DNA of 36,794 nt from SAR86 cluster bacterium AG-422-P06 (GTDB lineage Bacteria; Pseudomonadota; Gammaproteobacteria; Magnimaribacterales; TMED112): NCBI GenBank assembly GCA_003213455.1, contig QCMX01000007.1:1-36794 (forward strand), given 5' to 3'. The notes under the pieces are model-generated. The model ran no database searches, was not told the DNA's origin, and worked only from the letters and a program-made list of their open reading frames with translations. Of the stretch, positions 5,743 through 32,960 are shown in pieces. How positions within the stretch are numbered: the stretch's first letter is position 1; each line of letters begins with the position of its first letter. Both the position numbers and the translations under genes were made by a program.

Positions 5743-5767
5743 AAAAAAAACTGAGCAAGCTCAGTTT
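5743..5767 (-). terminator. Rho-independent terminator directly abutting the annotated pheA start
   Basis: Minus strand AAACTGAG-CTTG-CTCAGTTTTTTTT: 8-bp stem, 4-nt loop, U-tract. Confidence 0.75.
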
Positions 5768-5990
5768 CTTTTAAATCGAGTACTGTAGGTGTCAAAAGTG
5801 AGATTATCTTTTGCATCCTTGAGTAAGATCTCTTTTACTCTTGGTGGTCAAGTTTGCTTCATTGCATGCTAAGCTTTCTTGAACTTTCACCTTTCAGTGC
5901 TCTTCCTTGTGTAACGTTTCCTTTCTTTGGTTCTGCAGTTCCTTTCCAGTTCTCGTTACCGCTAGGTAAGATCTAATTTAAAATGTGTTA
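5743..5990 (-). ncRNA. Candidate structured leader or sRNA upstream of pheA
   Basis: About 220 nt with no convincing ORF, several hairpins (ttacc/ggtaa, gagtaa/ttactc, tcaag-gctt/aagc-cttga), five GGA motifs on the minus strand, ending in a terminator. Boundaries approximate. Confidence 0.5.
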
Positions 5991-9376: not shown

Positions 9377-11584
9377 TTAGTTATTAGTTTCACCAGTCCA
9401 TGTATGGCTACCGACTGTTGCATAATCGTGTGCATCTTGGTCGGAAATCTTAGTAATTTCCCACCAGCAGTCAGTTGCATCTGTACCAGCTGAAGTAGTC
9501 CATGAATCTGTTCCAGCTTTAGTAGCTTTCTTAATCATTACAGATTCTGAACTTGCTTGTGAATCTCCACATGCTGTCCAATCACTTCCAGGATCTCCTT
9601 GGTAGTCACCAAATACATCCACGACTGTTGCAGTCTGTGATGGATCATCTGATGCAGCAGCTTTCTTAAATAGCTTATAAGCATCATCACCATTATGTGA
9701 AATATCACTACTTACTTGGTCAGTATTATTTCTAAGTGCATCAGGTCCATCTGTTCCTTCTGCTCTTCCAATAACCCAAACATCTCCGTTAGCAATAGTT
9801 GCTCCAGACGTAAAGTTAATAGCAACCTCATACTCTCCAGCTACTGAAGGAGCGTTACTTACTCTTCCTAAGAAGTATTGGTCTAGAGAAACATCTGCAC
9901 CTGTAAAGTTTGCAATTTCAACATACTTAGTCCAGTTAGAACCAACTTCTGATGTTTCTGAGATAAACAGATCATCAGCAGTAGGTGCTGGTGCCGGTGT
10001 TGGCTCTGGTGTATCAGCTACAGCTACAACTACGTTATCATAGAGCATTGCTGTTGGGTGATAATTAGTACCAGTGTTTGAGAAACCAAACTGTATAGGC
10101 CATCCAACCATAGTGCTTATTATGTCTACAGATAAAGATCCATCTGTATTCCATGCGGATGTAGTGTATCCACTAGTATCTGCATAAACACCTGGCTCTG
10201 CTGCATAACCGTTTCCTGGGTTAAGAACTTTTACAAATGCTTGGCAACTTAAAGCTGTTGTACCAGTATCAGTGTTTGTATCACCACAAGCTGTACCTTC
10301 ACTAGGCTTTTTACCATGCCATGTAAACGTTAAAGTTTTACCTACATCTGCTTCTGCAACTGTGTATTCTGTAAAGACATTTGTCTCATGTACTTTAGTC
10401 GCAATTGATGAATCACCATAGTTAGCAAATACTTTTAGATAATTTGTCGCATTACCTTCGCTATCAGTCTCACTTCTTTCAACAGCAGAGATCTGTGATT
10501 GATTAGGGTGAGATGCATTAGGAGCTGCTCCTAAGTAGTTATACTCATATGCACCTGCAGTTCCATCTGCATTTGCGGTAAATACGTTAACTGCATACTT
10601 CCAACCATCAATAGTTTCGTTGTCATCTGTTACAGCTTCAAAATCAGCTTCTGCGTAGTTACCAGATGGTGCTGGTGTTGGCTCAGGAGTTGGCTCTGGA
10701 GTTGGTTCCGGAGTTGGCTCAGGAGTGTAAGCACTTACATCAGCATTATCATAAAGCATGCCTGTTGGCGCATAGTTACCAGAGTAGTTTTTAAATCCTG
10801 TTTGTAAGATATGTCCAACCATTGCTTCTGTTAATTCAAAATCAACGTTTACGGTTTCACCGTCAGTTGATGCACTTGTTGTATCAGTTGAGGCATCTAG
10901 TAGAAGGCTATAGTCAGTACTGTTTACAACTTTAACTATTGCTGCACAAGTCGCACCAGTAGCTCCATTGTCTCCATTAGTACTACCACAATTATTGGAA
11001 GCAGGCGATTTTGCTGTCATAGAGAATCTATAAGTTCCCACCATATCAGCTGTAATATAGCCTTGAGTAGCTCCAAGTTCTCTAATAATGTTTACTTCAA
11101 CAAAACCTGTACCATGAGTACCATCACTATAGTTACTGTAAGTATTAAGAATAGTGTTACCACCATCTTCAGCAACTAAGCCTGTCATGTTATCTAACAC
11201 AGCAGTACCGTTATAGTTGTTTGTGTAATTACCACCTGAATCAAATTGATTCACTGAATACATCCATGGAGCTAGATCCGTTGCAGCTGCATAACCTTCG
11301 AAATCGTCTGCGAAAGTAACACTAGGTGCCGGTGTTGGCTCAGGTGTAGGTTCAGGCGTTGGCTCTGGAGTTGGCTCTGGAGTTGGTTCCGGAGTTGGCT
11401 CAGGCGTCGGCTCTGGTGTTGGCGCCGGTGTAGGCGCTGGTGTTGGCGCCGGTGTAGGCGCTGGCGTTGGCATAGGTGTTGGCGCTGGTGCCGCAGGAGT
11501 TTCATTAAATGAATCTCTGCTAACCCCATCACTACACGCAGCTAAAAAGACTAACGTAAGAAAAGTGGTGAGTTTTTTAAACAT
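9377..11584 (-). CDS. Large repeat-linker lipoprotein: duplicated beta-sandwich-like domains plus C-terminal lamin-tail-like domain
   Basis: Lipobox [18 protein letters not shown] linkers; two similar domains (WMYSVNQF...PTGMLYDN and WKYAVNVF...PTAMLYDN); C-terminus [35 protein letters not shown] resembles LTD. Confidence 0.75.
10669..10728 (-). repeat. Second PTPEP linker coding repeat
   Basis: gctggtgttggctcaggagttggctctggagttggttccggagttggctcaggagt, same unit as the 11325-11491 repeat. Confidence 0.85.
11325..11491 (-). repeat. Low-complexity PT(A/E)P linker coding repeat
   Basis: Tandem hexa/dodecanucleotide units (ggt/gtt ggc tct gga gtt) encoding (PTPAPTPEP)n. Confidence 0.9.
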
Positions 11585-11675: not shown

Positions 11676-12857
11676 TTACTTTTTATGTTTGGTCAGATCA
11701 GTCTCATCTCTATGCTTTCTCAGATACTTCATAAATGGTGTTCCACCTGTACCTCTGACCTTCGAACCACCTGTACCAAATAGAGTGCTTTTAGTACTTT
11801 GATTGTGTATATAATCAGCAGCGTATTGTAGGTGTTGAGATCTAAAAATTGAGATTTCCTGACAACACTCATCAAATAGAGTTTTTAATTCTTCATTATT
11901 AGCAACATCTTGCTTAACTTTAGAATGATCTTCCACGTATTTAATTAATTCTCTGTGTGATGGAGGCATATAAGATTTCATCTCATCAAGATATTCTCTA
12001 AGCTCATCTTTTTCATGCACAACATTAAGCAAAGCATCTAGAGTAGGAACTATAGAACTTTGGGCTCCTGTTTCTCCTCTATATAATTGTGGTTTCTCAT
12101 CAAAACAGCCTTCATAGATTAAACCATCTGGCAGACCTGGATTGTTTTTCCAGCCAAAGATATAAGGTCTGACTCTATGATAGTAGATGTAAGGATCACA
12201 TTTTTCAGGCATCTTTCTAAACAGATGATTAACCTTCAACATAGATTCTTTTATTTTTGTTAACTCTTCTAAAAGTGTTGAATCACTAGCTTCATTAAGC
12301 TCATATGCAGATGCGATTGCAAATGAACTTTTAATGGCTTGATTTGCTGCATGCTCTATACATACATGGATTGTCACAAACCAATCTTCATCTATACCGC
12401 CCAAGAAATTATAATTTAGAGCGACATTATCTAGATTTACCCCTTCATCATCATTTATTTTGTGCCAATTATCTAAACAGTAACTGGCATAACTGAGAAT
12501 TGCTGGTCTACCAAGTTGTTCAGATATTTTAGACCAGGGCAGGGCAATAGCTTTACAAAGCACTTTTGAGGGAGCTAAATCTCCCCAGACGTAGGCATGG
12601 GCTAAGAATGAAAATTGAACGTTTAATAATCTAAGCTCAACTTCAGAGTATTTACCTAAATCATGTGAAAAGAAATCTTCTGGTAGTGCATCAATTTGAT
12701 GTCTAATTTTATTAGTCAGTAAAAGTTTAGGTATGGCACAGGCCAGATCTTCTAATGTTTGTTCATCTGAATTTTTATCGTCTAGGTATCTAAGAGGTTG
12801 TGATTTACCAATAAAACCATCTACATTATCTTTATCAAGTGTCAGATTAGATTTCAT
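11676..12857 (-). CDS. Indoleamine 2,3-dioxygenase-like heme dioxygenase
   Basis: C-terminal LFGTGGSKVRGTGGTPFMKYLRKHRDET, internal GAQSSIVPTLDALL, FRSQHLQYAADYI and N-terminal region consistent with the IDO family. Confidence 0.85.
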   Translation of the reverse strand: MKSNLTLDKDNVDGFIGKSQPLRYLDDKNSDEQTLEDLACAIPKLLLTNKIRHQIDALPEDFFSHDLGKYSEVELRLLNVQFSFLAHAYVWGDLAPSKVLCKAIALPWSKISEQLGRPAILSYASYCLDNWHKINDDEGVNLDNVALNYNFLGGIDEDWFVTIHVCIEHAANQAIKSSFAIASAYELNEASDSTLLEELTKIKESMLKVNHLFRKMPEKCDPYIYYHRVRPYIFGWKNNPGLPDGLIYEGCFDEKPQLYRGETGAQSSIVPTLDALLNVVHEKDELREYLDEMKSYMPPSHRELIKYVEDHSKVKQDVANNEELKTLFDECCQEISIFRSQHLQYAADYIHNQSTKSTLFGTGGSKVRGTGGTPFMKYLRKHRDETDLTKHKK

Positions 12858-12924
12858 GCAATTATTCTATATAAGTTAATAATATTTTCATCTTTTATAG
12901 AGGTTTTTATTGAATATTCATTCT

Positions 12925-12945
12925 AAATGAGAATGATTATCATTT
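12925..12945. promoter_or_regulatory. Fur box 1 in IDO/TBDR intergenic region
   Basis: AAATGAGAATGATTATCATTT. Confidence 0.85.
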
Positions 12946-12992
12946 ATTTTAGTTTTTTGCTTGAAATTACAAAATACCTTCATATAATTCCT

Positions 12993-13026
12993 AAATGAGA
13001 ATGATTATCATTACGATTATCATTTA
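12993..13026. promoter_or_regulatory. Fur box 2 (extended/overlapping sites)
   Basis: AAATGAGAATGATTATCATTACGATTATCATTTA: Fur core followed by another ATTATCATT half-site, just upstream of the TBDR start. Confidence 0.85.
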
Positions 13027-13042
13027 CGAATAACGAGGATAT

Positions 13043-15118
13043 ATGAAAAATTTAATTAAAATTTTATTCTTACTTACAGCTTTTGCATATGCGCAATCAG
13101 CTTCAAACTCTACTGATGTAGATGGTAATGAGATAGAAGAAGTTGTTGTCAAAGGCAATGTTCTTTACTCAGATCAAGTTAATGCACTAAAAACCCCAGT
13201 GCCTGTTTTAGATGTACCTCAAACAGTATCAATTATTACTGATGAAGATATAAGAAAACAAGGCTTTAGAGAAATAGGGGATATCGTTAGATACACTCCT
13301 GGTGTTAACACATCTCAAGGTGAAGGTCACAGAGATTCTGTCGTTTTTAGAGGCGTAAGATCTACTGCTGATTTTTATCAAGATGGTGTTAGAGATGATG
13401 TGCAATACTACAGATCTTTATATAACGTTGAACAAGTTGAAGTTCTAAGAGGACCAAATGCTCTGTTATTTGGAAGAGGCGGAACAGGCGGCATGATTAA
13501 CAGAGTTACAAAAAAAGCTGTTATCGGAGAAACTTTTACTGCTCATGATATCGGTATAGATTCATTCGGCGCATCTGATCTTGGTTTAGATACTAACATT
13601 CAGTTGGATAATAATTCAGCACTAAGAATAAATCTTCATAGTGATGATTTAGCTAATCACAGAGACCATTACGATGGTTCTAGATTAGGAATCAACCCTA
13701 CAATGAAAATTCGTTTAACCGCTGATACAACACTAGATCTTTCTTACGAATATGCAGACCACGAAAGATTTATTGATAGAGGTATACCAACAATTAATGG
13801 TAGACCTGATGAGTCATTAGTTGATGTAGTTTTTGGTGATTCAAGTACAAATATTCAAACTCTAGAAGCAAGCATTATGAGAGCACAAGTCACTCATAAA
13901 ATGTCAGAAACAAAGAAAGCTAATTTCAGTCTAACATCTAGTAGTTTCGAAAAAATGTATCAAAATCTTTATGCATCAGGTTATGACGGAACACTCGTAA
14001 CTATGGATGGATATAGAGACCCAACTGAAAGAGATAATTTTATCCTATCTGGAAATCTTGTTAATGAAATTTCATTAGGTAACATGACTCACACTTTACT
14101 AATTGGTGCAGAGTTTATTGATACAGAAAACAAGAACCTTAGATACGATTCTTTCTGGTCAACTACTTCAGATGATAATGAGGTTTTCAATATCACAAGA
14201 CCTATGGACTTTTCTGTCAACTCAGCTGGCGTAGCTACAGGTGTTGATTTTGCAACTAAGTTAAATCGTCAAACAGAATCTGACATAACTGTTACATCAG
14301 TTTACATACAGGACCAAATAGACGTATCAGATAATCTGAAAGTATTACTTGGTGGAAGAATTGATGATTTTGATATTACTGTTAGAGACATTAAAAATTC
14401 TTCATCAGAATCAAGAAACGATAATACATTCTCACCAAGAGCTGGTTTGGTATACAAGCCACAAGAAAATGTTTCTTACTATGTTAGTTACAGTGAGAGT
14501 TTCTTACCAAGATCTGGTGAGCAATTTAAATCATTAAGCGCAACATCTGCACGTTTAGACCCTGATGTGTTTGAAAGTACAGAAGTTGGTGTAAAAGTAG
14601 CTTTAGCAAACAATATGAGCTTAACAGCTGCGTACTTTGATAGTGAGCAAGTTAGAGCAGAGCGAGATAATGACACTGGTGAAACTTCAGAAGTTAGAGG
14701 TTTAACTGTAAGTGGTATTGAGGTTGAGCTTAAGGGACGAGTAAATGATAGCTTAAATCTTGCTATTGGTTACTCTGATTTAAGCGGTGAAACAAGTTCT
14801 GGTGGTATACCTAGAGAAATACCTGAGCATACTTTATCTGCTTACGTTACATACCAAATGAACGACAAACTAAGTTGGGCCTTAGGTCTTACTCAACAAG
14901 GCGAATCTAAAATTAAAGATAATACGCCTGGTTTAGTTTTACCTGAATACACAAGAGTTGATCTTGCAGCTTACTATCAAGTTGCAAAGAATCTAAGTGT
15001 TCAAATGAACGTGGAGAATTTAATGGATGAATTATATTTCCCACATTCACACAGTACACATCAAGCGTCTGTTGGTGAAAGTTTGAATACAAGAGTATCA
15101 ATGAGGTGGACTTACTAA
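13043..15118 (+). CDS. TonB-dependent siderophore receptor (catecholate-type-like)
   Basis: Signal peptide, TonB-box-like EIEEVVVKG, plug domain DVPQTVSIITDEDIRKQGFREIGDIVRYTPGV, EVLRGPNALLFGRGGTGG, C-terminal aromatic RWTY; Fur boxes upstream. Confidence 0.92.
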   Translation: MKNLIKILFLLTAFAYAQSASNSTDVDGNEIEEVVVKGNVLYSDQVNALKTPVPVLDVPQTVSIITDEDIRKQGFREIGDIVRYTPGVNTSQGEGHRDSVVFRGVRSTADFYQDGVRDDVQYYRSLYNVEQVEVLRGPNALLFGRGGTGGMINRVTKKAVIGETFTAHDIGIDSFGASDLGLDTNIQLDNNSALRINLHSDDLANHRDHYDGSRLGINPTMKIRLTADTTLDLSYEYADHERFIDRGIPTINGRPDESLVDVVFGDSSTNIQTLEASIMRAQVTHKMSETKKANFSLTSSSFEKMYQNLYASGYDGTLVTMDGYRDPTERDNFILSGNLVNEISLGNMTHTLLIGAEFIDTENKNLRYDSFWSTTSDDNEVFNITRPMDFSVNSAGVATGVDFATKLNRQTESDITVTSVYIQDQIDVSDNLKVLLGGRIDDFDITVRDIKNSSSESRNDNTFSPRAGLVYKPQENVSYYVSYSESFLPRSGEQFKSLSATSARLDPDVFESTEVGVKVALANNMSLTAAYFDSEQVRAERDNDTGETSEVRGLTVSGIEVELKGRVNDSLNLAIGYSDLSGETSSGGIPREIPEHTLSAYVTYQMNDKLSWALGLTQQGESKIKDNTPGLVLPEYTRVDLAAYYQVAKNLSVQMNVENLMDELYFPHSHSTHQASVGESLNTRVSMRWTY

Positions 15119-15143
15119 TTATTCCTTAGGAATAATTGGTTTT
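15117..15143 (+). terminator. Rho-independent terminator after the TBDR
   Basis: AATTATTCC-TTA-GGAATAATTGGTTTT, 9-bp stem. Confidence 0.65.
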
Positions 15144-15144
15144 A

Positions 15145-15458
15145 AATGCGTAATCAAAGATGTGTGCAATAACTTTTACCAAGGTGGTTGTGCACATCGA
15201 AACGCTAAAGAACTGATTAGTGGGGGGCAGGCTAATGTATGTGGTACAAAATTGTCATATTCCACCCTTGCAACTTATGATGATTAAGACTCTCTCATGC
15301 TTGCCTACACTATTTGTTCGAGTGAAATAGAACAGTACTTATAGTACAAAGCCTAGATCTATTTCATTCAGTGTGATTACTTTTTAGTTCATATTTTTAC
15401 CTTTCTATTAGAAAGTTAGTCGCACACTAAACCCCTTAGAAATAAGGGGTTTTTTTTA
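15145..15458 (+). ncRNA. Candidate structured non-coding RNA of unknown class
   Basis: About 310-nt non-coding interval with stems GCGT/ACGC + GATGTG/CACATC, GGCAGGC/GCTTGCC enclosing GTGG/CCAC, and GAGTGAAATAG/CTATTTCATTC enclosing GTAC/GTAC, ending at a strong intrinsic terminator. 5' end uncertain. Confidence 0.6.
15429..15458 (+). terminator. Strong rho-independent terminator (GAAA tetraloop)
   Basis: AACCCCTTA-GAAA-TAAGGGGTT followed by a T-tract. Confidence 0.9.
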
Positions 15459-15483
15459 TATTAAAAAGGATTAGACTAAATCT

Positions 15484-15921
15484 ATGAAATTATCATTTCC
15501 ACCTGTAATTACACTAGCTTGCATAGCAGGACAATTCATTCTTTATATGATGTTGCCTTTACAGGTAAATCTAAGTTTATTGTTGGGTCTAATGCTTCTT
15601 ATCGCATCTGTAGCATTAATAGTTATTTCGTTTAAAGAATTACAAAAAAATGACACAACTTACATACCAGATGGAGAGCCAGAACAATTAGTCACTACAG
15701 GTCCATTCTCCTACAGTAGAAATCCAATCTATTTAGGTATGTTTGGCATATTAGTTGCGACTGCCTTTTTAATGCAATCCATGTCAGCATTACTTATACC
15801 CGTTTTATTTATTTCTATTATTCAGAATACATGGATACCACATGAGGAAACTAAATTAAGTGAAAAGTTTACTGATGATTGGGAAGCTTATTCTGCAAAC
15901 ACAAAACGTTGGCTATGGTAA
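15484..15921 (+). CDS. Isoprenylcysteine carboxyl methyltransferase family membrane protein
   Basis: TM segments, TTGPFSYSRNPIYLGMFG, HEETKLSEKFTDDWEAYSANTKRWL. Confidence 0.88.
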   Translation: MKLSFPPVITLACIAGQFILYMMLPLQVNLSLLLGLMLLIASVALIVISFKELQKNDTTYIPDGEPEQLVTTGPFSYSRNPIYLGMFGILVATAFLMQSMSALLIPVLFISIIQNTWIPHEETKLSEKFTDDWEAYSANTKRWLW

Positions 15922-32885: not shown

Positions 32886-32960
32886 GCGACCATAGTATAA
32901 CGGCTATTACGAGGCCTTGCCAAGGCTTAGATTCGAGTTCGATTCTCGATGGTCGCTCCA
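32886..32960 (+). tRNA. tRNA-Gly(GCC), CCA encoded
   Basis: Acceptor GCGACCA/TGGTCGC, anticodon arm AGGCC-TTGCCAA-GGCTT (GCC), T-arm TCGAG-TTCGATT-CTCGA, terminal TCCA. Confidence 0.95.

Follow-up and report, generated by a model that had tools for sequence, protein, structure and literature searches.

Related regulatory RNAs

In E. coli, katG is repressed by the small RNA RyhB (PMC4666370). It is also a target of SdhX, a 3'-end-derived sRNA which pairs with the Shine-Dalgarno sequence of katG and so represses it (PMC6393394). SdhX (RybD) belongs to the sdh-suc operon of enteric bacteria, where it is located behind the final gene of a metabolic mRNA and ends at the Rho-independent terminator of that mRNA; it is Hfq-dependent and cut by RNase E (PMC6393394). 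RyhB, by comparison, is a free-standing, Hfq-dependent gene, and is linked to iron and to iron-using enzymes as targets, as are its functional analogues PrrF, BrrF and IsrR.

SAR86 is an abundant, uncultured and streamlined bacterial group of the sunlit ocean. The window, i.e., the whole stretch of 36,794 nt that was analysed, is contig C7 of a SAR86 genome of 687 kb. In it, 365 bp separate the gene for a TonB-dependent siderophore receptor from that for a methyltransferase of the ICMT/PEMT family. The original prediction placed a structured non-coding RNA between these genes, an observation which has been confirmed in part and an interpretation which is partly supported.

The candidate RNA resembles SdhX in following the last gene of what would be its parent mRNA and in ending at a Rho-independent terminator. 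The two sequences are, however, unrelated, and the parent of SdhX is a TCA operon whereas that of the candidate would be an iron-uptake gene. Furthermore, the katG site of SdhX in E. coli lies in a variable region beyond the conserved seed, while the proposed katG site of the candidate is a conserved hairpin loop. As read here, the candidate would share with the RyhB group the link to iron and to iron-using targets, but it is highly structured, would end the mRNA of a siderophore receptor, and occurs in a lineage without detected Hfq. If this holds, it would work like RyhB or SdhX, although neither by covariance model nor by Hfq can it be counted as a member of RyhB.

Organization of the locus

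The features of the locus are collected in Table 1.

Table 1. Coordinates of the candidate RNA, its parts and its neighbours in the window
Feature	Position	Strand	Basis
Fur-box-like sequences, two clusters (AATGAGAATGATTATCATT and overlaps), upstream of receptor	12923–13021	+	read directly
TonB-dependent siderophore receptor gene	13043–15118	+	TIGR01783 above cut-off, 271 bits; Pfam plug and barrel
Stem 1, optional domain, loop ACCAAGGUG	15146–15206	+	MFE fold, alignments; restricted to five genomes (clade of the window)
Stem 2, core, with an outer helix, the helix GGCAGGC/GCTTGCC and an inner hairpin whose loop CCACCCUUGCAA is near-invariant	15215–15316	+	covariance model, all 12 orthologs
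Stem 3, optional domain, GAGTGAAATAG/CTATTTCATTC	15320–15369	+	MFE fold, alignments
Hairpin 4, open 18-nt loop UUCAUAUUUUUACCUUUC at 15388–15405, antisense to the katG ribosome-binding site	15368–15428	+	MFE fold
Rho-independent terminator, likely end of receptor mRNA and RNA	15429–15456	+	terminator scan, alignment
TAGACT, -10-like element of the methyltransferase gene, beyond the RNA	15472–15477	+	
ICMT/PEMT-family methyltransferase gene, downstream of the RNA	15484–15921		start codon at 15484

Elsewhere in the window, a tRNA-Gly (GCC) is present at 32886–32960 (plus strand), and a secreted-looking protein with long PTPEPTPAP repeats separating repeated domains is encoded at 9377–11584 (minus strand). 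The window also carries a copy of the known marine motif IMES-1 (RF02034; 108.8 bits against a gathering score of 81) at 5767–5960 on the minus strand. Like the candidate, IMES-1 is a structured RNA of marine bacteria, but it represents a different family, and its model does not match the candidate.

Predicted structure

On the plus strand, positions 15140–15460 fold with a minimum free energy (MFE) of -97.9 kcal/mol, whereas 100 dinucleotide shuffles gave -65.3 ± 5.0 kcal/mol (z -6.6) and not one equalled it; the opposite strand gave a z of -2.3. The predicted fold consists of four stem-loops and a Rho-independent terminator. All three stems named in the original prediction are part of it and lie where they had been proposed, and the terminator with a GAAA loop was found by the scan at 15429–15452, followed by a run of eight U's in 11 of the 12 orthologs. 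Nevertheless, the three-stem layout holds among orthologs only for stem 2; stems 1 and 3 do not occur in all of them, and hairpin 4, the most informative part, had been missed. Stem 2 together with hairpin 4 and the terminator makes up the core common to the orthologs.

The region was rightly described as devoid of a plausible coding sequence: it holds only a GTG frame of 41 codons which has no Pfam match and whose first part falls within stem 1, absent from the short orthologs. On the other hand, the terminator ascribed to the receptor gene itself (15119–15145) is a weak AT hairpin (TTATTCC-TTA-GGAATAA) which was not called by the scan and occurs in no relative. The supposed local richness in G and C is also hardly discernible, the content being 35.7%, compared with 33.5% in the whole window and 36.3% in the receptor stretch upstream.

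Loop 4 is predicted to be open, with an unpaired probability of 0.70–0.93 among the 12 orthologs. Pairing between loop 1 (CCAAGGUG, 15178–15187) and loop 2 (CACCCUUG, 15261–15275) was calculated at -8.9 kcal/mol with one bulge, and the long RNA form possibly contains a kissing interaction between both loops. A pseudoknot involving GTGG/CCAC was considered as well and rejected, as it is not kept in genome G006.

Distribution and conservation

The results from BLAST analyses place the RNA sequence in nine genomes, that of the window included. With the covariance model of stem 2, single copies were found in 12 genomes of the genus (E values 4e-21 to 4e-5), and in each of the 12 the RNA is flanked by the same receptor and methyltransferase genes. 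Among 21 genomes of the genus, 13 contain an ortholog of the receptor; the RNA occurs in 12 of these 13 and in none of the eight lacking the receptor. The exception is G020 (97% complete), in which receptor and methyltransferase are retained with a gap of 45 bp and the RNA is absent. Searches with the covariance model located the RNA in no SAR86 family other than that of the window. Two weaker matches outside the genus, in other families (L087 and L088; E values 0.001 and 0.008), were attributed to chance, being in or overlapping coding frames at places where the syntenic locus is absent. The methyltransferase gene has different neighbours in the other SAR86 families where it was examined, and phage records gave no DNA match.

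The alignment of orthologs that had been suggested as a check comprised 12 genomes, and it revealed both compensatory changes and covariation of stem 2 above controls. All 12 orthologous RNAs fold better than their shuffles (z -2.5 to -6.6; -1.1 to -6.1 with the terminator removed). In stem 2, 92.6% of the cells of the alignment are paired and seven pairs show two-sided changes; the covariation score was 0.265 against 0.137 for shuffled and at most 0.129 for slid alignments, although the alignment was fitted to the structure, which favours the score. Stem 3, which like stem 1 is confined to the five genomes of the window's clade, exhibits clear compensatory changes there (GAGTGAAATAG/CTATTTCATTC versus AAGTGATATTG/CAATATCACTT). 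The loops are the most conserved part and the helices vary by compensation: the stem 2 loop CACCCTTGC is identical in all 12 orthologs, and the hairpin 4 loop UUCAUAUUUUUACCUUUC in eight genomes belonging to two clades. We regard it as practically certain that the locus encodes a conserved structured RNA.

A second check, the comparison with Rfam, returned no family at gathering score for the candidate, which leaves its novelty intact. Matches under relaxed conditions were all below the cut-offs, and several of them cover hairpin 4 and the terminator. The covariance model of RyhB (RF00057) gave no match, either at gathering score or at E ≤ 10. Given the strong fold, the orthologs, the covariation and the result with Rfam, the description as a new sRNA of no recognised class is upheld.

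Origin of the transcript

The core helix begins 15–41 nt past the receptor stop codon in seven orthologs, and 85–107 nt past it in the clade of the window. The short gaps in the seven orthologs leave little room for an intergenic promoter, and no conserved promoter is evident between the stop codon and the core helix. Since promoter-like sites detected by the scan are moreover no commoner in the region than in shuffles, the 3' UTR of the receptor mRNA is the parsimonious reading. The original view of an RNA lying outside the receptor transcript is therefore not followed here; the RNA is quite probably part of the receptor 3' UTR. Two properties recall 3'-UTR-derived sRNAs: the RNA lies on the same strand directly after a coding gene, with which it shares a terminator, and it has, as judged from the sequence, a conserved unpaired seed complementary to the translation start of a target (loop 4 and katG). 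A 3' UTR, or an sRNA derived from it, of the siderophore receptor mRNA appears to be the most likely identity.

Upstream of the receptor, the Fur-box-like sites differ from the 19-bp consensus at 4–5 positions, and in 7 of 7 relatives checked the receptor is likewise preceded by similar sites. At up to 5 mismatches, the window contains 10 such sites against 0–6 in shuffles, so that the evidence for Fur boxes rests on clustering and conservation. Divergent from the receptor is a gene (11676–12857, minus strand) for a protein of the indoleamine 2,3-dioxygenase family (PF01231, E value 3e-85), itself a family of haem enzymes; the 5' end of this gene faces the same Fur-like sites.

Complementarity of loop 4 to the katG start

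The complement of loop 4 reads GAAAGGUAAAAAUAUGAA and corresponds to a Shine-Dalgarno sequence, a spacer and an AUG. It was used for an ungapped search of eight genomes, in which the start of katG, which encodes the haem catalase-peroxidase, was the best non-self site of G009 (1 mismatch in 18); the katG start of G019 (2 mismatches) was joint best with one other site. The katG gene was then fetched from 18 genomes and its starts were examined. Seven genomes, representing only two clades, combine the conserved loop with a katG start that can be read; in all of them, the predicted duplex of loop 4 with the katG of the same genome has an energy of -18 to -25 kcal/mol. Per genome, 0–3 of 743 sampled starts (a sample, not every gene) pair equally well and katG surpasses 740–743 of them, a ranking that is partly post hoc as katG was noticed after the pattern search. 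Of 2000 shuffled loops, 0–5 pair with katG as well as loop 4 does. Within the duplex predicted for the window's own genome, AAGGUAAAAAAUGAAC and GUUCAU[A]UUUUUACCUU form a 16-bp stretch in which one base is bulged. N masking covers the upstream side and the first codons of katG in the otherwise near-complete genome G012 (L236).

The katG genes of G009 and G019 belong to a different lineage, with about 75–80% identity, while most of the others share more than 90% among themselves. Complementarity to loop 4 thus exists in two katG lineages. In G020, which has the receptor and lacks the RNA, the katG start pairs poorly (-5 to -11) with the six loop sequences tested. Genomes with a diverged loop 4 show weaker pairing, katG being within the top 6–7% of 386 starts in G003 and the top 4% in G004, and not special in G006. 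A complementary katG start is kept in G013, G014 and G016, in which neither receptor nor RNA was seen; these are metagenome-assembled genomes of 64–83% completeness and the locus may be unassembled.

The total number of loop-4-like sites is no higher than in the reversed-pattern control. A few ribosomal-protein starts with strong Shine-Dalgarno sequences equal katG in pairing with loop 4, and in the subset examined of AAGGTAAN{2,4}ATGA sites across 8 genomes the other real starts (rpsG, pal, tatC) are weaker than katG. On balance, these comparisons lead us to favour, with some reserve, the view that the RNA is a base-pairing regulator of katG.

Strong pairing with loop 4 (-20.7) was also calculated for another start, ACAAGGTGAAAATATGAA, which recurs in three genomes (L200, G002:C4:3585; G010:C3:127144; G018:C14:13895). 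It precedes a protein of at least 401 amino acids, the first 110 of which have no Pfam match, and possibly constitutes a second target of loop 4.

Candidate targets of loop 2

The complement of loop 2, TTGCAAGGGTGGA, used as a pattern in 12 genomes, gave 157 sites, whereas the reversed control gave 90; the matches examined were mostly within coding sequence. When loop 2 was compared with 55 sampled starts of G005, iscU ranked first and sdhB second. Both are iron-sulphur genes of the type regulated by RyhB. At sdhB, the predicted site comprises 8 bp (GCAAGGGU) at the Shine-Dalgarno position and is identical in three close genomes, but it sits in the 3' end of sdhA, where conservation can be coding. 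We therefore treat sdhB and iscU as leads to potential loop 2 targets. A third gene, ispG, also ranked high and was discarded, its start being probably mis-called.

Alternative explanations

The RNA might be a purely structural 3' UTR, whose stems protect the receptor mRNA from 3' exonucleases and whose terminator ends it, with no targets in trans. Its position directly past the receptor stop codon and its strong hairpins would agree with such a role, as would the failure to detect Hfq (PF17209), which was found in 0 of 10 SAR86 genomes, near-complete ones included, while 5 of 14 controls matched. Stabilization alone, however, predicts neither the invariant CACCCUUGC loop nor the complementarity to katG, and it is the unpaired loops that are most conserved while the helices change by compensation; we consider a purely structural function rather unlikely. 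Less probable still is a separate sRNA gene, transcribed from a promoter of its own that would lie within the receptor gene or past its end; its product would pair with the same targets and would not require control by iron. Promoters located inside a gene are known for some 3'-end sRNAs (PMC9438474), and the window has a weak promoter-like site at 15107–15136, but the chance-level frequency of such sites and the lack of an evident conserved promoter ahead of the core helix speak against it.

As the terminator ends about 30 nt before the methyltransferase gene, the RNA could also be imagined as a cis-acting leader, riboswitch or attenuator of that gene, and it has a sub-threshold match to Phe_leader (RF01859; 32.8 bits, gathering score 55). 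This match is nonetheless limited to hairpin 4 and the terminator, and the methyltransferase gene has a -10-like element of its own past the terminator. Whether or not a genome carries the RNA, the hexamer keeps its place in 19 of 19, its end lying 6 nt (16 genomes) or 9 nt (3 genomes) upstream of the ATG; because such hexamers are frequent by chance in AT-rich DNA (326 of 650 starts), it is the fixed position and not the mere presence that counts as evidence. A role as methyltransferase leader is for this reason very improbable. Finally, the original prediction had mentioned a divergent housekeeping RNA (6S, tmRNA, RNase P or SRP), for which length and structure are the only arguments. No tmRNA, RNase P, SRP or 6S model matched the candidate, even at E ≤ 10, the 6S model (RF00013) among them; of the 10 SAR86 genomes tested, 9 have a 6S RNA at another, conserved locus of its own; and the candidate is absent from most SAR86 genomes, occurring in one genus and always beside the receptor gene. 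A housekeeping function thus has a negligible probability. The 6S RNAs of the genus (L192–L199) score 39–44 bits against the Rfam gathering score of 46.4 and were present in every near-complete genome tested.

Proposed mechanism and significance

We propose, with moderate confidence, that the structured 3' UTR of the siderophore receptor mRNA is a base-pairing, iron-sparing sRNA which would act on katG in a RyhB-like manner. When iron is plentiful, Fur probably represses the receptor mRNA. Under iron scarcity, this mRNA would be made and its structured tail would accumulate, and the tail could act as a base-pairing small RNA, or be cut or started into one. The open loop of hairpin 4 would then pair with katG mRNA over its Shine-Dalgarno sequence and start codon, so that translation would be blocked and iron saved, and the near-invariant loop CCACCCUUGCAA of stem 2 probably has further targets. 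The scheme builds on the observed conservation of structure and synteny, the Fur-box-like sequences, the lack of space for an intergenic promoter in several genomes and the exceptional match to katG; from these we infer Fur control, transcription, processing, accumulation in trans, repression and Hfq-independence, and iron sparing would be its physiological outcome. It counts against the scheme that no Hfq, the customary partner of sRNAs, was detected.

A more far-reaching and decidedly tentative version is that, without detectable Hfq, one receptor transcript both imports iron and, via its exposed loops, turns off enzymes that use iron (katG, possibly also sdhB and iscU), with a match between loop and target that survived the replacement of the katG lineage.

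A working principle of this kind is already known, while the RNA family is new. The review of 3'-end sRNAs mentions neither siderophore nor TonB (PMC9438474), and no description of an sRNA in SAR86 was found in the open-licence literature; what would be new is the location in an mRNA for iron uptake, and this in bacteria in which Hfq was not detected. If the proposal is true, it would represent a simple route to RyhB-like iron sparing, in which the import protein and the sparing RNA come from one mRNA, and structured loops would serve as seeds instead of an Hfq-bound single strand. The RNA may in this way help the cells to save iron when it is scarce.
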